Source of the DNA: Sphingomonas sp. Leaf343
GTDB taxonomy: Bacteria > Pseudomonadota > Alphaproteobacteria > Sphingomonadales > Sphingomonadaceae
Length of the DNA: 64,000 nt
Reading direction: 5' to 3'
Assembly: GCF_001423765.1 (NCBI RefSeq)
Contig: NZ_LMPG01000001.1
Location: 130,073 to 194,072 of the forward strand
Under the pieces are notes generated by a model that was not told where the DNA came from, ran no database searches, and saw only the letters and a list, made by a program, of their open reading frames with translations. Both the position numbers and the translations under genes were made by a program. This document shows, piece by piece, positions 3,510 to 17,150 of the stretch. Position 1 is the first letter of the stretch. Every line of letters starts with the position of its first letter.

Positions 3510-4331
3510 CTACCGCGCTTTCACGAACCGCAGGGTCATCCGGTCGCTCTCGCCGATCGCGACGTATCTGGCGCGGTCGGTGTCGCCCAGCCGCAGGGTC
3601 GGCGGCAGCGTCCAGACGCCCTCCGCCCAGTCATGCGTGTCGCGCGGGTTGGCGTTGACCTTGCTCTCGCCGGCCAGCCTGAAACCGGCGTCCGACGCCA
3701 GCTTCACGATCGTCGATCGCTTGAGATAGCCGCTCTTCATCTCCGCCGCAGAATCCATGTCTTCGGGCAGGCGGTGGTCGACCACGCCCAGCGTGCCGCC
3801 GGGTTTCAGCATGCGGTGGAACGCTTTGAACGCGTTCGGCGCGGCCTGTCCGCCCTGCATGATGAGGTTGTGGACGTTGCGGAACGTCAGCACGGTGTCG
3901 ACCGACCCGTCCGGCACAGTCGACGTACCCGCCGCGACGTCCAGCGCCGCCGCCGTCGCGCCCTTGTACCGGGTGCCGCCGCCCGCGAGCAGCTTCGTCA
4001 GCCCCTCCTGCCCCTTCTGACTGGTGAGGCCGACATAATGGCCGCGCGCCGACAGCATGGGTGCGAGGATTTCGGTGTACCAGCCGCCGCCGGGCTGGAA
4101 CTCGACCACCGTCTGCGTCGGCGTCACGCCGAAGAACGCCAGCGTCTCGGCCGGATGCCGGTATCTGTCGCGCGCGCGGTTCTGCGGGCTGCGTTCCGGC
4201 GCGGCGACGGCCTTCGCGATCGCCGGGTCGGTCCGCTTCGCCACCGCCTGCGCGCCCGACGGCGTCGCCGCCGCGATCAGCATCCCGCCCATTCCTGTGA
4301 CGGCCAGTGCCGCCAGACCGTGCTTCAGCAT
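3510..4331 (-). CDS. Exported class I SAM-dependent methyltransferase-like protein
   Basis: A 273-residue protein with a signal peptide (MLKHGLAALAVTGMGGMLIA, cleaved near SGAQA) followed by a Rossmann-type methyltransferase fold. Motif I is TVVEFQPGGGWYTEIL, and VDTVLTFRNVHNL matches the strand-4 region. It resembles the COG4798 group of predicted methyltransferases, which are oddly exported and whose substrate is unknown. Two ATG codons lie side by side (4334 and 4331) after GGGAGA; 4331 has the better spacing. It diverges from the yghU gene. Function beyond the fold is not known. Confidence 0.75.
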   Translation of the reverse strand: MLKHGLAALAVTGMGGMLIAAATPSGAQAVAKRTDPAIAKAVAAPERSPQNRARDRYRHPAETLAFFGVTPTQTVVEFQPGGGWYTEILAPMLSARGHYVGLTSQKGQEGLTKLLAGGGTRYKGATAAALDVAAGTSTVPDGSVDTVLTFRNVHNLIMQGGQAAPNAFKAFHRMLKPGGTLGVVDHRLPEDMDSAAEMKSGYLKRSTIVKLASDAGFRLAGESKVNANPRDTHDWAEGVWTLPPTLRLGDTDRARYVAIGESDRMTLRFVKAR

Positions 4332-4414
4332 CATTCTCTCCCGCCGCTTCCTTGAGGGCGGGGGTGGTGGACCATAGATTGCGACCGGCCGCAACCGCGG
4401 CGAAGGAACCTGCG

Positions 4415-5266
4415 ATGACCGACCCGAACTACGAACCGCCCAAGGTCTGGACCTGGAACCGCGAGGCCGGTGGCCGCTTCGCCAGCATCAATCGCCCGAT
4501 CGCCGGGCCGACGCACGACAAGGACCTGCCGGTCGGCGACCATCCGCTGCAACTCTATTCGCTCGCCACGCCCAACGGGCAGAAGGCGACGATCATGCTG
4601 GAGGAGCTGCTGGAGGCGGGGCACGCCGGTGCGGAATACGACGCATGGCTGATCCGCATCATGGACGGCGACCAGTTCGGCAGCGGCTTCGTCGCCGCCA
4701 ACCCCAATTCGAAGATTCCCGCGCTGGTCGATCATAGCGGCCCGGAGCCGGTCCGCGTGTTCGAGTCCGGTTCGATCCTCGTCTATCTCGCGGAGAAGTT
4801 CGGGGCGTTCCTGCCGACCGAGCCGGCCGCGCGCGCGGAGACGTTGTCGTGGCTGTTCTGGCAGATGGGGGCCGGCCCGCTGCTGGGCGGCGGCTTCGGG
4901 CATTTCTACGCCTATGCGCCGGTGAAGATCGAATATGCGATCGACCGCTATGCGATGGAGGTGAAGCGGCAGCTCGACGTGCTGAACCGGAGACTGGGCG
5001 AGGTGCCCTATATCGCGGGCGACGACTACACGATCGCCGATATCGCGATCTGGCCGTGGTACGGCGCGCTGGTGCAGAACAAGGTCTATGACGCGGCCGA
5101 GTTCCTGGCGGCGCAGGACTACGCGAACGTCGTCGCCTGGGCCGGGCGCATCGGCGAGCGGCCGGCGGTGAAGCGGGGACGGATCGTCAACCGCATCATG
5201 GGCGACCCCGCGGAACAGCTCCACGAACGCCACGACGCGAGCGATTTCGACGGGAAGCTGGCCTGA
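4415..5266 (+). CDS. yghU: YghU-type glutathione-dependent disulfide-bond oxidoreductase
   Basis: A 283-residue cytosolic protein of the Nu-class glutathione transferase group. It has the long N-terminal extension of YghU (NREAGGRFASINRPIAGPTH), a thioredoxin-like domain (LYSLATPNGQKATIMLEEL, then NPNSKIPALVDH and FESGSILVYLAEKFG) and a helical GST C-terminal domain (YIAGDDYTIADIAIWPWYG). YghU binds two glutathiones and reduces organic disulfides and peroxides. Length fits the family (about 288). The ATG at 4415 follows AAGGAAC. It has its own promoter region and is followed by a repeat, so it is likely monocistronic. Confidence 0.9.
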   Translation: MTDPNYEPPKVWTWNREAGGRFASINRPIAGPTHDKDLPVGDHPLQLYSLATPNGQKATIMLEELLEAGHAGAEYDAWLIRIMDGDQFGSGFVAANPNSKIPALVDHSGPEPVRVFESGSILVYLAEKFGAFLPTEPAARAETLSWLFWQMGAGPLLGGGFGHFYAYAPVKIEYAIDRYAMEVKRQLDVLNRRLGEVPYIAGDDYTIADIAIWPWYGALVQNKVYDAAEFLAAQDYANVVAWAGRIGERPAVKRGRIVNRIMGDPAEQLHERHDASDFDGKLA

Positions 5267-5273
5267 CTTGAAT

Positions 5274-5390
5274 CCTCCCCGTCACGGGGAGGGGGACCGC
5301 GCAACGGTGGAGGGGCAGCCACGGGCGACACCGCGTGTGGCCGCCCCTCCGTCACGCCTGCGGCGTGCCACCTCCCTGTGCCGGGGAGGA
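5274..5390. repeat. Composite palindromic intergenic repeat
   Basis: The stretch opens with CCTCCCCGTCACGGGGAGG and closes with CCTCCCTGTGCCGGGGAGGA, and has a central pair (GGAGGGGCAGCC against GGCCGCCCCTCC). This long, nested palindrome lies just after yghU and can fold as a branched hairpin; it may end yghU transcription. The rest of the 5267-5494 gap shows no gene. Confidence 0.6.
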
Positions 5391-5494
5391 ATAGTTGGCC
5401 GGCTCAACCCTCTACTGGTGAGGGAAGCCGGAAATAGCGGGGGATCGACAGAGGCCATTGCGACCGCCTCCGCCACATCCTAGGGCGATCCGCG

Positions 5495-6238
5495 ATGGCA
5501 TCGGGTTACCGCGTCTCGCCCGGTCGGCGTCGGCCCGCCTCGCTGATCCTGGCGCTGGTGGCGCATGTCCTTATCATCCTCGCGCTGTTCTGGGCCGCGC
5601 CGAAGCCGCCGCCGCCGCGCGAGGTCGATCCCGACCCCAAGACTTTCAGCCTCTATCCCGCGCCGAACGAGGTCGCGCGGCCGAGTCCGCAGAAGAGTGT
5701 CGCCCGTTCGACCAGCGCCGCGCGCAAGGCCCCCGCCGCCGCGCCGGTCGGCCCCGCTGTCGTACCACCACCGCCGCCGATCCCCGCGCCCGCGCCCGTG
5801 AAGATGCTGGCCGGCGGCATGGAGCTGTTCGACGCCGCCGACATCGGCAAGCTGGGCAACAAGGGCGATACCGGCGCTGACACCGCCGGCACCGGGAAGG
5901 GCAGCGGCAAGGTCTATGGTCCCGGCGAGGGGCCGGGCGGCGAGCGGTTGTACGACGTCGACTGGTATCGTCGACCGACACAGGCGGAACTCGACGGCTA
6001 CCTGCCCAATGGCGCACCGCCCGGCGGCTATGCGATCATCGCGTGTCGGATGATCGAGAACTACCAGGTCGAGAATTGCCGTCAGCTCGCCGAATCGCCG
6101 GTCGGCTCCGGGTTGGCCCGCGCGATGCGGCTGGCGGCGTGGCAGTTCCGCGTGCTGCCGCCGCGGGAGGGAAACCGCATGATCCTGGGCGGTTGGGTAC
6201 GCATCAAGATCAGCTTCGGCGAACTGCCGCAAAAATAG
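5495..6238 (+). CDS. TonB-like energy transducer
   Basis: A 247-residue protein with one N-terminal membrane segment (about 15-34, SLILALVAHVLIILALFW), a proline/alanine-rich periplasm-spanning region (about 36-105, including VVPPPPPIPAPAPV), a Gly-rich linker and a C-terminal domain with the TonB-like pattern ARAMRLAAWQFRVLPPREGNR. TonB proteins pass energy from ExbBD to outer membrane receptors. The gene lies 98 bp ahead of a TonB-dependent receptor, so it is probably that receptor's dedicated partner. The C-terminal domain is divergent from classical TonB, hence the general name. No exbBD is present here. Confidence 0.7.
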   Translation: MASGYRVSPGRRRPASLILALVAHVLIILALFWAAPKPPPPREVDPDPKTFSLYPAPNEVARPSPQKSVARSTSAARKAPAAAPVGPAVVPPPPPIPAPAPVKMLAGGMELFDAADIGKLGNKGDTGADTAGTGKGSGKVYGPGEGPGGERLYDVDWYRRPTQAELDGYLPNGAPPGGYAIIACRMIENYQVENCRQLAESPVGSGLARAMRLAAWQFRVLPPREGNRMILGGWVRIKISFGELPQK

Positions 6239-6240
6239 CA

Positions 6241-6279
6241 CGTCACGCGTCCGTCACGGAGGCGTCACGACCCGGTCAT
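6241..6279 (+). promoter_or_regulatory. Four GTCAY half-sites with exact 11-bp period (Pho-box-like)
   Basis: GTCAC, GTCAC, GTCAC and GTCAT start at 6242, 6253, 6264 and 6275, exactly 11 bases apart. PhoB-class (OmpR-family) regulators bind tandem 11-bp direct repeats, and the PhoB half-site is CTGTCAY. Here the preceding bases are CC or similar rather than CT. The site lies 58 bp before the receptor start codon. Phosphate control is an inference from pattern and gene content. Confidence 0.55.
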
Positions 6280-6336
6280 CCGGTGGGAACATGGCCCCGC
6301 TCACCGGGAAGCATATCCGTTCAAGGGGCTGTAATC

Positions 6337-8721
6337 ATGATCGCCAAGTTTCTGATGCTCGCGGGCGTCGCGCCTGCGGCGCTGTTCGCGCAGGCCGCCG
6401 TCGCGCAGGACATGTCCGTGCAGGCCGCCGCCGCTGCTCCTGCCGCCGCCGATATCACACCCGAAGATCAGGCCACTCCGGATCAGGCTGGCCCCGATCA
6501 GGCGGGCGGGGACATCGTCGTGCTCGGCTTCGGCCAGAGCCGTCAGGTCCAGACCGTCACTGCCAGCGATCTCGAGCGCCTGACGCCCGGCACGTCGCCC
6601 CTGAAGGCGGTTGCCAAGCTGCCCGGCGTCAATTTCCAGTCGTCGGACGCGTTCGGTGCGTATGAGTGGTCGACGCGGATCAGCCTGCGCGGGTTCAACC
6701 AGAACCAGCTCGGCTTCACGCTGGACGGCGTGCCGCTCGGCGACATGAGCTACGGCAACGTCAACGGCCTGCACGTCAGCCGCGCGATCATCTCCGAAAA
6801 TCTCGCCAGCACCACCGTCGCGCAGGGCGCCGGGTCGATCGGTACGGCATCGACCAGCAACCTCGGCGGCACGTTGCAATTCGTCAGCCGGACCCCGTCC
6901 GACGCATTCGATATCGTCGGCTCCGGCACGTATGGCAGCGACGACACGTACCGCGCTTTCGTCCGCGTCGACTCCGGCGATCTGGGTGAGGGTCTGAAGG
7001 GGTATCTCAGCTACGGCTTCCTTCAGACCGACAAGTGGAAGGGCTATGGCAACCAGCGCCAGCATCAGGCGAACGGCAAGATCGTCAAGGACATCGCCGG
7101 GCTGGGCAGCATCACCGCGTTCCTGAACTTCTCCGACCGGCGGGAAACCGATTATCAGGACCTGAGCCTCGACATCATCCGTCGCCGCGGCCTGAACAAC
7201 GACAATATCGGCGACAACTACCCGCTCGCGCTGCAACTGGGGCAGATCTACGCCAACCAGACGGTCCGCGCGGGCAGCGGTGCCGCGCCCTTGCCCTATC
7301 CCTCCGCGGGCCTCGCTTTCCCGTCGGGGATCGGCACGATCGACGACGTGTATTACGACGCGGGCGGCCTGCGTCGCGACTGGCTGGGCGGGGTGACGTT
7401 CGACGCCAAGCTGTCGCCGGAGCTGTCGGTCGTCTCGACCAGCTATTACCACAAGAACAAGGGGCAGGGATCGTGGATCACGCCCTATGTCGGTACCCCC
7501 GCCGGTGCGCCCGACGGCAATGGCGGCACGCTGACGGCCGGATCGCCGCTGTCGTTCCGCACCACCGAATACGGCATCGATCGCGCCGGCAATTTGACGC
7601 GGTTCGCGTACGAGACGGCCGTCAACAGGCTGGAGGTCGGCGGCTGGGTCGAGAGCAACAGCTTCAATCAGGCGCGCCGCTTCTATGGCATGACCAGCGC
7701 CGCGACGCCCAATCGCGAGACGCTGGCGTTCCAGAAGGACCCGTTTGCGACGCAGTGGAACGGCAAGTACGACACTTTCACGCTGCAATATTACGTCGCC
7801 GATACGCTGACGCTGGGCGACCTGACGCTGAACGGCGGGTGGAAGGGGATGCGCGTCCAGAACCGTGCGAACCTGACCACCGGTACGCTGGTCGCGGGTG
7901 AGATCCAGTCGAAGGACTGGTTCCTGCCGCAGGTCGGCGCGGTGTTCCGCCTCGGCGGCGGCGCGGAGGTGTTCGCCAGCTACACGGAAAACATGCGCGC
8001 GTTCGTGTCGTCGGCGACGACTGGCCCGTTCGCGATTACGCAGGTCGGGTTCAACGCGATCCGCAACACGCTGAAGCCGGAAACGTCGAAGACCGCGGAG
8101 GGCGGCGTGCGCCTGCGCACCGGCGGGCTGCAACTGTCGGCGGTCGGCTATTATGTCGATTTCTCGGACCGGCTGCTGACCTTCGCCAACGGGGCGGGCA
8201 TCATCGGCAACCCGCCGACGCTGAACAATGCGGGCAGCGTCGAGAGCTATGGCGCGGAACTGTCCGCCTATTACCGGATCGCCGGCGGCTTTTCCGCCTT
8301 CGCCAGCTATTCGTACAACAAGGCGACGTATCAGGACGACGTCCGCAACGTCGCCGGCGCGGTGCTGACCGCGACCGAAGGCAGGACCGTGGTCGATACG
8401 CCGGAGCATATGGCCAAGGGCGAACTGGTGTTCGACAATGGCAGCTTCTTCGCGCGTGCCGGTGCGGATTACATGTCGAAGCGGTACTTCACCTACCTCA
8501 ACGACCAGTCGGTCGGTGCGCGCGTGCTGGTCGATGCCAGCATCGGCTATCGCTTCCCGGCGCTGGGCGGGCTCGCGATCGAGGGCAGCGTGACCAACCT
8601 GACCGACAAGGAGTATATCTCCACGATCGGCTCCAACGGCTATGGGGCCAGCGGCGACAACCAGACGCTGCTGGCGGGTGCGCCGCGTCAGTTCTTCGTC
8701 TCCCTGCGCAAGGGGTTCTGA
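6337..8721 (+). CDS. TonB-dependent outer membrane receptor
   Basis: A 794-residue receptor with a signal peptide (cleaved after AAVAQ), a TonB-box-like DIVVLG near residue 55, an N-terminal plug (VAKLPGVNFQSSDAFG, ISLRGFNQNQLGFTLDGVPLGD, NLGGTLQFVSRTPSD) and a C-terminal 22-strand barrel ending in a terminal aromatic (FFVSLRKGF). There is no FecA-type signalling domain. The substrate is unknown; the two-base gap to the secreted phosphodiesterase gene and the 11-bp repeats upstream suggest uptake linked to phosphodiester or phosphate scavenging. The ATG at 6337 gives a proper signal peptide; upstream codons in frame do not. Confidence 0.92.
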   Translation: MIAKFLMLAGVAPAALFAQAAVAQDMSVQAAAAAPAAADITPEDQATPDQAGPDQAGGDIVVLGFGQSRQVQTVTASDLERLTPGTSPLKAVAKLPGVNFQSSDAFGAYEWSTRISLRGFNQNQLGFTLDGVPLGDMSYGNVNGLHVSRAIISENLASTTVAQGAGSIGTASTSNLGGTLQFVSRTPSDAFDIVGSGTYGSDDTYRAFVRVDSGDLGEGLKGYLSYGFLQTDKWKGYGNQRQHQANGKIVKDIAGLGSITAFLNFSDRRETDYQDLSLDIIRRRGLNNDNIGDNYPLALQLGQIYANQTVRAGSGAAPLPYPSAGLAFPSGIGTIDDVYYDAGGLRRDWLGGVTFDAKLSPELSVVSTSYYHKNKGQGSWITPYVGTPAGAPDGNGGTLTAGSPLSFRTTEYGIDRAGNLTRFAYETAVNRLEVGGWVESNSFNQARRFYGMTSAATPNRETLAFQKDPFATQWNGKYDTFTLQYYVADTLTLGDLTLNGGWKGMRVQNRANLTTGTLVAGEIQSKDWFLPQVGAVFRLGGGAEVFASYTENMRAFVSSATTGPFAITQVGFNAIRNTLKPETSKTAEGGVRLRTGGLQLSAVGYYVDFSDRLLTFANGAGIIGNPPTLNNAGSVESYGAELSAYYRIAGGFSAFASYSYNKATYQDDVRNVAGAVLTATEGRTVVDTPEHMAKGELVFDNGSFFARAGADYMSKRYFTYLNDQSVGARVLVDASIGYRFPALGGLAIEGSVTNLTDKEYISTIGSNGYGASGDNQTLLAGAPRQFFVSLRKGF

Positions 8722-8723
8722 CG

Positions 8724-10046
8724 ATGCTGCGGCGTCTCCTGTTCGTGGCGGCGGCGCTGCTGACGACCGGCGAGGCTTCGGCCTCGTCGGTGCTGCTGAT
8801 CTCGCTCGACGGGCTGCGGCCCGCCGACGTGGCGCAGGCGAAGGCGCGGGGCATGACACTGCCCGCGCTGACCGCGCTCGCGGCGGAGGGTGCGTCGGCG
8901 GAGGGGGTGATCGGCGTCCTGCCGACGCTGACCTACCCCAGCCACACCACGCTCGTTACCGGCGTCTCCCCCGCGAAGCATGGTGTGTCGAACAACCTGA
9001 CCTTCGATCCCGATGTGAAGAACCAGACCGGCTGGTACTGGTATGCCAGCGACGTGCGCGTGCCGACCCTGTGGGCCGCGGCGCACGCGAAGGGGCTGAC
9101 GACCGCCAACGTGCACTGGCCGGTCACGGTCGGCGCGCCCGGTATCGACGCCAATCTGCCGCAGATCTGGCGCACCGGCACTGCCGACGATCCCAAGCTG
9201 CTCGCCGCGCTGGCGACGCCCGGACTGTTGCCCGAACTGGAGAAGGCGGTCGGCACAGCCTATGCGCAGGGGATCGACGAGAGCGTCGAGGGCGACGCGA
9301 ACCGCGTCCGCTTCGCCGCTGCGCTGATCGCGGCGCGCAAGCCCGCCTTCACCACCGTCTACCTCGCCGGGATCGATCACGAGGAACATCGCAGCGGCCC
9401 CGGCTCCGCCGCCGCCAACGCCGCGATCGAACAGACCGATGCACTGGTCGGCCAATTGGTCGCCGCCGCCCGCAAGGCGATGCCGGACGTGACGATCGTG
9501 CTGGTGTCCGATCACGGGTTCCAGCCGATCGCGACCGACATCAACCTGTTCAAGCCGTTCCTCGACGCCGGCCTCATCACGCTTGGGCCGGACGGCAAGC
9601 CGACCGGGTGGGAGGCGATGCCGTGGCTCGCGGGCGGCACCGCGGCGGTGCGGCTGGCGCGCCCGGACGACGCCGCGCTGGTGGCGAAGGTCGCGGCCGT
9701 GCTGGCGAAGACGGCTGCCGATCCGGCCTATCACATCGCCACCGTCATGGACCGCAGTGCGGTGGCGAAAGCCGGTGGCGCGAGCGAGGCCAGCTTCTTC
9801 GTCGCGCTCCAGCCGGGTTACGAGACCGGTCGCGATCCGGGGGCGCCGATCGCAAAGCCGGCGGCATACAAGGGCATGCACGGCTATGTCCCGACCGATC
9901 CGGCGATGCGATCGACGTTGATCGTGGCGGGACCGGGGATCGGGCCCACCGATCTGGGCGTGGTCGACATGCGCGCCATCGCGCCGTCGATCGCGCGGGT
10001 GCTGGGCGTGACCCTGCCGGATGCAGAGGTGAAGCCGGTGTTTTGA
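8724..10046 (+). CDS. Secreted alkaline-phosphatase-superfamily phosphodiesterase (NPP/ENPP-like)
   Basis: A 440-residue protein with a signal peptide (to about residue 20) and the nucleotide pyrophosphatase/phosphodiesterase fold. Likely metal ligands and nucleophile are visible: D29 (ISLDGLR), T70 in PTLTYPSHTTLVTG, D218 and H222 (GIDHEEH), D263/H264 (VSDHGF) and H386 (KGMHGY). Such enzymes hydrolyse nucleotide or other phosphodiesters in the periplasm or outside. It starts two bases after the receptor stop, so the two are co-transcribed. The natural substrate cannot be told. Confidence 0.88.
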   Translation: MLRRLLFVAAALLTTGEASASSVLLISLDGLRPADVAQAKARGMTLPALTALAAEGASAEGVIGVLPTLTYPSHTTLVTGVSPAKHGVSNNLTFDPDVKNQTGWYWYASDVRVPTLWAAAHAKGLTTANVHWPVTVGAPGIDANLPQIWRTGTADDPKLLAALATPGLLPELEKAVGTAYAQGIDESVEGDANRVRFAAALIAARKPAFTTVYLAGIDHEEHRSGPGSAAANAAIEQTDALVGQLVAAARKAMPDVTIVLVSDHGFQPIATDINLFKPFLDAGLITLGPDGKPTGWEAMPWLAGGTAAVRLARPDDAALVAKVAAVLAKTAADPAYHIATVMDRSAVAKAGGASEASFFVALQPGYETGRDPGAPIAKPAAYKGMHGYVPTDPAMRSTLIVAGPGIGPTDLGVVDMRAIAPSIARVLGVTLPDAEVKPVF

Positions 10047-13159: not shown

Positions 13160-13819
13160 TCACACCACCAGCCGGTATCCGATCCCCGGCTCGTTCCGGA
13201 TCAGCACGGGGCGTGACGGATCGTCCTCCAGCTTCACGCGCAACCCGCGTGCGGCGACGCGCAGATAGGCGATATCTTCGACATGCGCCGGGCCCCAGAT
13301 CGCCGTCAGCAGCTGCGCGTGCGTGACGATCCGCCCCGGATGCGTGGCGAGCATCGCCAGCAGCGCGTATTCCTTGCGCGTCAGATGCACCTCCGCGCCG
13401 GCCTTCGTCACCGATCGCCGGTCCGCATCGATCGTCACGTCGCCGGCCGTCACGACCCGGGCCGGCACTGCGCCGCGACGGCGCAGTGCCGCACGGAGGC
13501 GTGCGAGCAGTTCGTCGCCGTCGAACGGCTTGGTCACGTAATCGTCCGCACCCAGATCGAGTGCCGCGACCTTCTCCGCCGCGGCCTCGCGCGCCGATAC
13601 GATCAGCACGGGGGCGGTGCTGATCCGGCGGATGTCGCTCAGCACCTCCAGCCCGTCGCGGTCGGGCAGGCCGAGGTCGAGCAGCACCGCCTCCGCACGC
13701 GGCACCAGCCCCATCGCCGATCGCGCATCGCCCGCCTCCGCCACGTCGTACCCGCCGCGCGACAGGATCGTCGCCAGCAGCCGCCGCACATGCGGTTCGT
13801 CATCCACGATCAGGATCAT
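13160..13819 (-). CDS. kdpE: KdpE-like response regulator (OmpR family)
   Basis: A 219-residue regulator: receiver domain (1 to about 115) with acidic D6/D7, phosphoacceptor D48 in AVLLDLGLPD and K97 in YVTKPFD; winged helix C-terminal domain (about 125-219) ending in EPGIGYRLVV. It is closest in character to KdpE, which activates potassium uptake genes. It overlaps the sensor kinase stop by ATGA. In this locus the potassium transporter next to it is Kup, not KdpFABC, so Kup control is the likely role. The gene name is by resemblance. Confidence 0.85.
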   Translation of the reverse strand: MILIVDDEPHVRRLLATILSRGGYDVAEAGDARSAMGLVPRAEAVLLDLGLPDRDGLEVLSDIRRISTAPVLIVSAREAAAEKVAALDLGADDYVTKPFDGDELLARLRAALRRRGAVPARVVTAGDVTIDADRRSVTKAGAEVHLTRKEYALLAMLATHPGRIVTHAQLLTAIWGPAHVEDIAYLRVAARGLRVKLEDDPSRPVLIRNEPGIGYRLVV

Positions 13820-15216
13820 GCGATGCGGAAGCCCACTGTGAAGATCGCGCCGCCGCCCGGCCGGTTCGCCGCGGTCACCCTCGCGCCGAACGCTTGGGAA
13901 AAGGCGCGGACGATCGCGAGGCCGAGGCCGCTGCCGCCATCGCGGTCCGAGCCGGCGAACCGGCGGAATCGGGTGAAGACATCGTCTTCGTGTCCGGCCG
14001 GAATACCCGGTCCCGCGTCGGACACGGTCAGCACCGCGCCCTCGACCACAATGGCGATCGGCCCCCCTGAAAACTTCGCGGCATTGTCGATCAGGTTGAG
14101 GAGGACGTGGTGGAGCAATCCCGGATCGGCCTGCACCAGCGGCGCATCGGGTGCGATCGTCACCGTCACGTCGCGTCCCGCCAGCATGCCCGCGGCATCG
14201 TCCAGCACGCTGGCGACGGCGTCGGTCAGGTCGACCGGCTCGATCGCGACCGCCACCGCCCCACCCTCGACCCGCGCCATGCCGAGCAGATTGTCGATCC
14301 GCCGCGCCAGCCGCTGCGCCTCCGCCACGATCGTTCCTCCGCCCGCCAGCGCGCGTCCCTCGCCGAGAATGACCGTCAGCGGCGTGCGCAGGTCGTGGCC
14401 CACCGACGACAGCAGCGCGGCGCCCAGTTCGCTGCGCCGCCGTTCCTCGCGGATCGCCGCCTGTTGCTCGGCCAGCCGCAGCCGGCCGATCGTCTGCGCC
14501 GCCGCCGCGATCATGCCCCGGATCAGCGAGCGCCGCCCCGCCGGCACCGGTGGGGTGCCGTCGACGCGGGACAGCGCGATCAGCGCCACCCGCTCGCCCC
14601 CGGCGACCACCGGCCAGTAGAGCCGGTCGGCGCTGTCGATCACGCCGCTGCCGCGCCCCGCCGGCTCTCCGTTCGCCAGCGCCCATTCCCCCGCCGCGCG
14701 GTCGAGCGGCGCGGCGACCGCGATATCGGGTTCGCCCAGCGCCGCCGCGTCGACAGCGAAGGCGGTGGTCACCGCATCGATCAGCAGCGCCAGTGCCGCA
14801 CCCTGATCGCCGGCATCGGTCATCGCCCGCTCCAGCATGGCCAGCCGCCGCTGGTCGGCCGCCAGCGCCTCCGCCGCCTCCCGCGCCGCGCGCAGCCGTC
14901 CGGCGAGCTGGCTGACCGCGCCGGCGACCAGCAGAAGCACCAGCGTCGTCGCGACGTTGTCCGGATCGGCGATGCGCAGCGTGAAGCGCGGTTCGATGAC
15001 GAAGAAGTTGAACGCCACCGCGCCGCCGCCCGCGGCGACCAGCCCGGCGACCAGTCCGCCCCGCGCCGCCGCGATCATCACCGGCAGGATGAACAGCAGC
15101 GCCAGACTGCCCGGCCCCAGCCATGGCGACAGCAGCATCGCGGTGACGCCGACCGCCGCCACGCCGAGCAGCGCCACGGCGATGCCGATCCGGCGGCTGA
15201 CGATCCCATCGGTCAT
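13816..15216 (-). CDS. KdpD-like sensor histidine kinase lacking the N-terminal KdpD/Usp domains
   Basis: A 466-residue kinase with four membrane segments at the N-terminus (about 8-105, the DUF4118 unit of KdpD), a GAF-like region (about 130-240), a dimerisation helix with H274 in SSVGHDLRTPLT and an ATPase domain (NLIDNAAKFS, DAGPGIPAGH, GGSGLGLAI). Classical KdpD is about 890 residues and carries a KdpD nucleotide-binding domain and a universal stress domain ahead of these segments; both are absent. The ATG at 15216 comes 33 bp after the kup stop, so nothing upstream can encode them. No other long frame in this strand continues the homology. Confidence 0.85.
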   Translation of the reverse strand: MTDGIVSRRIGIAVALLGVAAVGVTAMLLSPWLGPGSLALLFILPVMIAAARGGLVAGLVAAGGGAVAFNFFVIEPRFTLRIADPDNVATTLVLLLVAGAVSQLAGRLRAAREAAEALAADQRRLAMLERAMTDAGDQGAALALLIDAVTTAFAVDAAALGEPDIAVAAPLDRAAGEWALANGEPAGRGSGVIDSADRLYWPVVAGGERVALIALSRVDGTPPVPAGRRSLIRGMIAAAAQTIGRLRLAEQQAAIREERRRSELGAALLSSVGHDLRTPLTVILGEGRALAGGGTIVAEAQRLARRIDNLLGMARVEGGAVAVAIEPVDLTDAVASVLDDAAGMLAGRDVTVTIAPDAPLVQADPGLLHHVLLNLIDNAAKFSGGPIAIVVEGAVLTVSDAGPGIPAGHEDDVFTRFRRFAGSDRDGGSGLGLAIVRAFSQAFGARVTAANRPGGGAIFTVGFRIA

Positions 15217-15248
15217 GCGGGCGTCCTGCCGCCTCGGATCGCCCACGT

Positions 15249-17150
15249 CTACACCTCGATCCGGCTGCCGAGTTCGACGACGCGGCCGGGCGGAATGCAG
15301 AAGAATTGCGTCGGGTCGGTCGCGTTCTTTTGCAGGAAGAGGAAGATCACGTCCTGCCAGAACGGCATCCCCTGACCCTTCGCCGCGCCGATCGAGTTGC
15401 GGCCGATGAAGAACGACGTTCCGCCCTTGTCGCGGGGCCAGCGCGGATCGCTCAGCAGGTCGGCCGGGATGTCCGGCGTATCCATATAGCCATAGGTCAG
15501 GGTCGCACATTCGAACAAATCGCCCAGCGCCGTCATCCGGAGCCGGTCCGGTGCCGCGACATAGGGAGTGTCGGCGGTCCGCACCGTCAGCACCACGTTG
15601 TGCGCGTGCAGCACCTTGTTGTGTTTGAGGTTGTGGAGCAGCGCGGCCGGCGCCTCGTGCGTCTCGCGCGTCAGGAAGACGGCCGTGCCCTCGACCCGTT
15701 CGGGCGGCCGACGCCCCAGCGCGGCGGCGATGTCGGCCAGCGGCACGCTGTCGCCCGACGTCCGCTCCGCCACCAGCGCGCGCCCGCGCCGCCACGTTGC
15801 GATCACCAGCCCGACCAGTGCCGCGACCAGCAACGGCACCCAGCCGCCTTCACTGACGCGCAGGATGTTGGCCCCGAAGAAGATCAGGTCGATCGCGAGC
15901 AGCGGCACGATCAGCGCCAGCGCGGTCGCCAGCTTCCACTTCCACAGCCGCGTGACGACGATGAACGCCAGACAGGTGGTGATGACCATCGTTCCCGTCA
16001 CCGCGATGCCATAAGCGGCGGCCATCGCCGACGAGCTCTGGAAGGCATGCACCAGATACAGCACGCCGATCAGCACCAGCCAGTTGATGAGCGGGATATA
16101 GATCTGCCCGGCATGATGCTGCGACGTCTGGCGGATCGCCATCCGCGGCAGCAGCCCGAGCGCGATCGCCTGCTGCGTCAGGCTGAACGCGCCGGTGATG
16201 ACCGCCTGCGACGCGATGATCGTCGCCAGCGTGGCGAGTACGACCAGCGGCGCGCGAAGCTGGTCGGGGGCCATCAGGAAGAACCAGTCGGCGTTGGCGA
16301 ACGGCTTGCCCGCCGCGGTCGCCGTTTCCAGCGTCGCGAGCGCGAACGCGCCCTGTCCCAGATAGTTGAGCACCAGCGCCGGAAAGACGAGCGCGAACCA
16401 GCCGATGCGGATCGGCTGCGCCCCGAAATGACCCATGTCGGCGGTCAACGCCTCTGCGCCGGTCACGGTCAGGAACACCGCGCCCAGTACGAACAGCCCG
16501 GCGGTGCCATGACTGGCGAGGAAGGTCGCCGCATGCCACGGGTTGAACGCCATCAGGATACCGGGCCGGTCCAGCACGTGCCACGCCCCCAGCGCCCCGA
16601 TCGCGAGGAACCACAGGACACAGACCGGCCCGAACACGCGCGCGACGCTGGCGGTCCCGCGCGACTGCACCGCGAACAGCGCGATGAGGATCACGACGGT
16701 CATGCCCATGATCGCGGGCAGCGACAGCCCGCCCAGGCCCGGCACCGTCTTCAAGCCTTCGACGGCGGACAGGACCGACAGGGCCGGCGTGATGATCGCG
16801 TCGCCGTAGAACAGCGCCGCGCCTGCCGCGCCGAGCAGCAGCACCAGCCCGCCGCGCTGCGCCGTGCCCGATCGGCTGGCCAGCGCCATCAGCGACAGCA
16901 CGCCACCCTCTCCGTTGTTGTCGGCGCGCAGCAGGAACAGCACGTATTTGACGGTCACGATCAGGATCAGCGCCCACAAGGCGAGGCTCAGCACGCCGAC
17001 GATCTCGCCCGCATCGATGCCACCCGCCGCCGACTGCGCCAGCGCCTCGCGAAACGCATAGAGCGGGCTGGTGCCGATATCGCCGAAGACGACGCCGATC
17101 GCGCCGAGCGTCAGGGCGGCCGTTCGGCCACGGGGAGAATGCTGGTCCAT
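15249..17150 (-). CDS. kup: Kup-type potassium uptake protein
   Basis: A 633-residue inner membrane K+/H+ symporter. The N-terminus LTLGAIGVVFGDIGTSPLYAFREA is diagnostic of the KUP/HAK/KT family. About 12 membrane segments fill the first 440 residues, followed by a cytosolic domain ending in VVELGSRIEV. Length is usual for the family. It heads a minus-strand unit with the KdpDE-like pair, so potassium sensing and uptake are probably linked. It diverges from the marR operon; the region between them holds the MarR operator. Confidence 0.95.
   Translation of the reverse strand: MDQHSPRGRTAALTLGAIGVVFGDIGTSPLYAFREALAQSAAGGIDAGEIVGVLSLALWALILIVTVKYVLFLLRADNNGEGGVLSLMALASRSGTAQRGGLVLLLGAAGAALFYGDAIITPALSVLSAVEGLKTVPGLGGLSLPAIMGMTVVILIALFAVQSRGTASVARVFGPVCVLWFLAIGALGAWHVLDRPGILMAFNPWHAATFLASHGTAGLFVLGAVFLTVTGAEALTADMGHFGAQPIRIGWFALVFPALVLNYLGQGAFALATLETATAAGKPFANADWFFLMAPDQLRAPLVVLATLATIIASQAVITGAFSLTQQAIALGLLPRMAIRQTSQHHAGQIYIPLINWLVLIGVLYLVHAFQSSSAMAAAYGIAVTGTMVITTCLAFIVVTRLWKWKLATALALIVPLLAIDLIFFGANILRVSEGGWVPLLVAALVGLVIATWRRGRALVAERTSGDSVPLADIAAALGRRPPERVEGTAVFLTRETHEAPAALLHNLKHNKVLHAHNVVLTVRTADTPYVAAPDRLRMTALGDLFECATLTYGYMDTPDIPADLLSDPRWPRDKGGTSFFIGRNSIGAAKGQGMPFWQDVIFLFLQKNATDPTQFFCIPPGRVVELGSRIEV

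Follow-up and report, generated by a model that had tools for sequence, protein, structure and literature searches.

The PHO box has been described as a pair of CTGTCAT repeats separated by an A/T-rich spacer of 4 nt (PMC3131613). TonB-dependent receptors, a nucleotide pyrophosphatase and a phytase belong to the PhoB regulon of Caulobacter crescentus, together with phosphatases and PstSCAB (PMC11208175). In Flavobacterium, the TonB-dependent transporters of the phosphate utilisation systems (PusC/PusD) are induced by phosphate depletion and some of them are clustered with phosphoesterases (PMC8115612).

The window (the whole stretch of 64,000 nucleotides of Sphingomonas sp. Leaf343 DNA that was analysed) carries at 6241-6284 on the plus strand four 11-bp direct repeats, CGTCACGCGTC CGTCACGGAGG CGTCACGACCC GGTCATCCGGT, which we regard with high confidence as a candidate PHO box array on the grounds of the sequence, genome scans, a pstS-derived matrix and conservation of the 11-bp period. 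The initial annotation had reported four GTCAY motifs 11 bases apart, and this was confirmed: GTCAC starts at 6242, 6253 and 6264 and GTCAT at 6275, with a spacing of exactly 11 bases. The array is bounded by the stop codon of an ORF at 5495-6238 and by the start codon of a TonB-dependent receptor (TBDR) gene at 6337, which lies 62 bases from the start of the last motif, and the receptor gene is followed by that of a nucleotide pyrophosphatase/phosphodiesterase-type (NPP-type) enzyme. With the classical PHO box the array shares the GTCA-core direct repeats every 11 bp, and sites of this type precede pstS and phosphoesterase genes in the present genome; it differs in having four repeats, AC, CC, GC and CG instead of CT before the GTCA core, and G+C-rich spacers (PMC3131613).

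TonB-dependent receptors and a nucleotide pyrophosphatase are common to this locus and the C. crescentus PhoB regulon, and because that regulon holds such genes the receptor-NPP locus falls in a known kind (PMC11208175). A TonB-dependent receptor beside a phosphoesterase gene is likewise common to the locus and to some of the PusC/PusD systems; the latter are SusCD-like, come with a binding lipoprotein and belong to Bacteroidetes (PMC8115612). The mechanism is already known and the operon in sphingomonads is a new instance of it; searches of open-licence papers yielded no account of a PhoB-controlled receptor-NPP operon in this group and, judged by titles and the beginnings of abstracts, no PHO-box model for it.

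Receptor and phosphodiesterase genes

The receptor gene (6337-8721, plus strand) is preceded by AAGGGG at 6323-6328 on the same strand, which from its sequence is the likely ribosome binding site. It encodes a TBDR of 794 aa with Pfam matches to Plug (PF07715) and barrel (PF00593), both above their cut-offs, and its best solved relative was the YncD/PQQ transporter (E 5e-8). The stop codon of the receptor (8719-8721) and the start of the NPP gene (8724-10046, plus strand) are separated by 2 bases, and owing to this gap the two genes are likely to be transcribed as one operon. The matches to Plug, barrel and PF01663 together with the 2-base gap bear out the order of genes, a TBDR and two bases on a phosphodiesterase, that had been proposed for this locus.

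The NPP-type phosphodiesterase, a protein of 440 aa with an N-terminus that looks like a signal peptide by eye, was identified by Pfam (PF01663), a structural model and alignment. The model reached a mean pLDDT of 91 when built from an alignment of 60 sequences and a pLDDT of 57 when built from nine close sequences. Its best structural match was the Xanthomonas NPP 7n1s (Z 39.7, rmsd 3.1, 353 residues aligned), with ENPP5 and ENPP7 tied within 1. Compared with the Xanthomonas NPP (2gsn and 7n1s) it has the same fold (Z 39.6 and 39.7) and the same metal-ligand and threonine residues at 24-25% identity in the structural alignment. The six metal ligands and the threonine nucleophile are all present (D29, T70, D218, H222, D263, H264 and H386), their roles being assigned through alignment with 2gsn and general NPP chemistry; D29, T70, N91, D218, H222, D263 and H386 were identical in 60/60 sequences and H264 in 59/60. 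Phosphatases of the PhoK type are described from sphingomonads (PMC12444516). Such a phosphomonoesterase identity is less likely by sequence, the enzyme being nearer to Xanthomonas NPP (2e-19) than to PhoK (2e-4). In the locus of one related genome (G154, L130), an ORF resembling a PhoA-type alkaline phosphatase by eye lies at 7850-8974 on the minus strand, about 1.1 kb beyond the NPP gene and on the other strand from it.

Conservation of the receptor-NPP pair

Among the best 80 of 92 public NPP loci, mostly from Sphingomonadales and with 8 of the 80 repeating genomes of the genus set, the receptor was found directly upstream of NPP in 66, counting as such a tblastn match on the same strand no more than 400 bases away. 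Contig ends account for some of the 14 loci without it, and the receptor was missing in this upstream test from each of the five Caulobacterales rows. With 66 of 80 loci, the expectation that receptor and NPP belong together was upheld by a conserved pair. Two Rhodanobacter loci (L178 and L180) carry a TBDR relative downstream of NPP, not upstream.

Within the genus, a search with the first 220 residues of the TBDR at E 1e-40 detected relatives in 185 of 295 genomes, and 14 of the 295 had a strong NPP match. The TBDR precedes NPP in all 11 NPP-bearing genomes examined (the own genome, L026-L033, L114 and L130; G215, G252 and G277 were left out). At one of these loci (L030 of G095, 3557-5957) the reading frame of the receptor is split in two, with the junction near residue 404, and NPP lies about 450 bases away; the gene is either broken or affected by a sequencing error.

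When Sphingomonas loci were fetched through the receptor, 18 of 20 had no NPP alongside; one of these 18 (L131) ends at a contig edge, and its genome is outside the 14 that are NPP-positive. The array score (defined below) was at least 16 in 13 of the 18 NPP-less receptor loci and in 8 of the 10 NPP-bearing loci scored. The initial annotation had suggested a dedicated Pho-regulated system; a PhoB-type array is supported, and the word dedicated has to be qualified because of the 18 receptor loci that lack an adjoining NPP. An alternative that is compatible with our best explanation is that the operon is Pho-controlled, the receptor imports something other than the substrate of NPP and NPP is an optional neighbour. 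The NPP-less loci, 13 of them with a high-scoring array, speak for this reading, as do the NCBIfam models nearest to the receptor, which describe receptors for siderophores and haem and none of which comes near its cut-off; against it stands the receptor directly upstream in 66 of the 80 public NPP loci, spread over five sphingomonad genera, and on balance we consider it rather unlikely.

A tree of 86 TBDRs, made by a quick method with a midpoint root, long-branch warnings and a bias to NPP-bearing loci (15 rows and 8 repeats of genus genomes were left out), required the NPP label to change 8 times, with at least 6 of these changes on starred branches. As the NPP-bearing rows span Sphingobium, Novosphingobium, Sphingopyxis, Sphingorhabdus and Sphingomonas, we read this as an old pair from which NPP would have been lost repeatedly in Sphingomonas, with repeated gains as the alternative.

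Similarity of the array to pstS boxes

The pst cluster of the genome lies on contig C12 at about 90-96 kb and encodes a PstS-type protein, PhoU and a PhoB-like regulator, with a sensor-kinase-like ORF (by eye) ahead of pstS. The PstS-type protein matches PF12849 and, below the cut-off of the model, TIGR02136. The PhoB-like regulator has a Trans_reg_C match and resembles the receiver (1b00, 7e-40) and the DNA-binding domain (1gxp, 9e-25) of E. coli PhoB, both of which are outscored by full-length OmpR-family structures, MtrA and RegX3 among them. The gap ahead of pstS contains TGTCATCACCG CGTAACAACGG CGTCAC, i.e., the same 11-bp format as the array.

The exact four-repeat pattern occurs once in the 3.6-Mb genome and not in the reversed control. 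With up to 2 mismatches three further matches appeared, of which one is this array again, displaced by a single repeat; at this tolerance the reversed genome still gave no match. The three-fold pattern YGTMAY-N5-YGTMAY-N5-YGTMAY is found without mismatch at two loci of the genome, the array and the pstS gap (control 0), and with one mismatch at three more, C1:404037, C11:91045 and C11:173008. The first two of these are each ahead of a metallophosphoesterase (Pfam) and the third is ahead of a Phytase-like protein. The genome scan that had been proposed as a check of the repeat pattern thus gave a positive answer in its three-fold version, which marks pstS and, with one mismatch, phosphoesterase genes.

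The site at C1:404037 (L133, 4038) is flanked on one side by a TBDR-like ORF (by eye) and on the other by the metallophosphoesterase, which has a lectin-like domain; the two genes are possibly a second receptor-phosphoesterase pair. The metallophosphoesterase at C11:91045 (L081) distantly resembles UDP-2,3-diacylglucosamine diphosphatase, below the model cut-off, and may be PlcP, a Pho-regulated lipid-remodelling enzyme.

At up to two mismatches the three-fold pattern gave 32 matches in the genome and 11 in the reversed control, with 26 of the 32 carrying two mismatches, and part of these two-mismatch sites must be due to chance. The ORF behind the site was tabulated for 18 of the 26, after removal of six that overlapped a neighbour and two that had no locus, and Pfam was run on five of the 18 chosen by eye; they comprised PhoX (PF05787), Porin_O_P (PF07396), two TBDR-type proteins and one protein without a family (C14:187051). 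Several other two-mismatch sites adjoin genes without a phosphorus link by eye, such as those for a ribosomal protein and a transposase-like ORF. At C14:187051 (L038, L157) the degenerate repeats are ahead of the protein without a Pfam match, which is followed by a TBDR-like ORF (by eye). Overlapping and partly palindromic repeat matches on both strands were seen at C1:858267-858306 (L142-L144), ahead of a small TPR-like/secreted ORF.

We scored the sites with a half-site matrix built from 18 distinct pstS boxes taken from other Sphingomonas genomes, the own and the nearest genome being left out. The array scored 15.0, and the best other position of the window on both strands 6.67; the own pstS box reached 24.8, above the array. 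Best scores at other sites of the genome were 16.3 for Porin_O_P, 15.7 and 12.3 for the TBDR sites (on C13 and at C1:468900), 11.2 for PhoX and 13.1 and 9.9 for the two metallophosphoesterase sites, and the Phytase-like site, at 4.89, fell below the chance maximum of the window. The matrix exceeded 6.67 in 23 of 30 TBDR upstreams of the genus. In the pstS boxes of other Sphingomonas the spacers are A-rich and the bases before GTCA vary; the base before GTCA/GTAA is T in 51%, G in 28% and C in 19%, which goes some way towards answering the doubt raised earlier over CC in place of CT in the half-site.

Binding of the array by another OmpR-family response regulator that uses 11-bp direct repeats, instead of PhoB, would fit the 13 Trans_reg_C domain matches in the genome, the G+C-rich spacers and the first bases AC, CC, GC and CG. 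This appears improbable, since elsewhere in the genome a perfect three-repeat match occurs only before pstS, and since no position of the window scores higher than the array with the pstS-trained matrix; the one-mismatch sites ahead of phosphoesterase genes also argue against it. The PhoB-type reading, on the other hand, is favoured by the same 11-bp format before the own pstS and before 30 of 30 scored pstS loci, and by the one-mismatch phosphoesterase sites.

Conservation of the 11-bp period

Upstream regions were scored within 300 bases at a period of 11 (maximum 18, threshold 16) for the top 30 pstS loci from the 142 genomes that had a match and for the receptor loci of 30 of the 185 genomes with a TBDR relative. 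At period 11 a score of at least 16 was reached in 30/30 pstS upstreams and 23/30 receptor upstreams, and at periods 7-10 and 12-15 in 0/30 of either; none of 179 coding stretches reached 16. The pstS counts are partly circular because the choice of YGTMAY was made with the pstS gap of this genome and some upstream regions of orthologues already in view; this applies less to the period control and to the matrix built without the own and nearest genomes, and all conservation counts come from related, non-independent sequences. The remaining seven receptor upstreams scored 13-15. Three of these seven (L068, L071 and L073, the last being the locus of an NPP-bearing genome) were not clearly above shuffles (0.056, 0.384 and 0.326). 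Among public receptor upstreams, a period of 11 gave a score of 15 or more in 58 of 63 and of 16 or more in 31 of 63 (30/60 in another count), against 0 to 5 and 0 to 2, respectively, with other periods. Conservation of the repeat spacing in orthologous loci, on which the initial annotation had staked its reading, was thus found both in the genus (23/30) and among public upstreams (58/63 at a score of at least 15).

The alternative that the tandem arose by chance or mutation and does not serve regulation, to which the shortness of the stretch and its degeneracy in some relatives might lend something, is highly improbable. None of 200,000 shuffles of the 98 intergenic bases contained the exact four-fold pattern, and a period-11 signal is kept in relatives despite changed spacer letters. 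Given how often GTCAY occurs in the window, the number of four-fold arrays expected in the genome on both strands is about 0.0001.

Proposed function of the locus

As the array resembles the docking site ahead of pstS, this Sphingomonas probably turns on the receptor and NPP when phosphate is scarce. PhoB binds four half-sites as two dimers. Starting from what can be read directly from the letters (the array, its likeness to pstS boxes, the conservation, the gene layout and the fold and catalytic residues of NPP), we propose that under phosphate scarcity phosphorylated PhoB would bind the four half-sites head to tail and recruit RNA polymerase to a promoter just downstream of the array, which would drive the receptor and NPP as one transcript. 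The receptor would then carry a phosphorus compound in short supply through the outer membrane, NPP, once exported, would cleave a phosphodiester or nucleotide pyrophosphate before or after import, and other Pho enzymes and PstSCAB would complete phosphate release and uptake. Import of phosphodiesters by the receptor is a tentative assignment, to which we give somewhat less weight than its denial.

In broader terms, and equally tentatively, the locus may be the core of an old phosphate-starvation uptake module of Sphingomonadales, in which a TBDR imports intact phosphodiesters and a periplasmic NPP cleaves them, and in which receptors whose NPP has been lost would still be PhoB-controlled and serve other phosphorus compounds; such a module would be a counterpart of the phosphate utilisation systems of Bacteroidetes. 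The array would link to phosphate starvation an unassigned receptor group that has relatives in 185 of the 295 genus genomes, NPP as a partner enzyme gives a handle on the substrate, and the pstS-derived matrix provides a usable PHO-box model for sphingomonads.

The ORF ahead of the array (5495-6238, plus strand) encodes a protein whose proline-rich, membrane-anchored look (by eye) fits the TonB-like label and which had no match in Pfam or NCBIfam at E 0.001. It had been placed in the same system by the initial annotation. A homologue is present in 145 of 151 genomes, and the gene adjoins the receptor in 1 of 11 related loci (that of the nearest genome, G100) and is found elsewhere in the other 10 genomes; a role as partner of the receptor and NPP was accordingly rejected, and the gene is a neighbour that does not belong to the conserved part of the locus and most likely a bystander. 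Further along the window, the minus strand at 13160-17150 carries, as judged by eye, adjacent genes for a response regulator, a sensor-kinase-like protein and a Kup-like potassium transporter, which perhaps form a potassium-control cluster.
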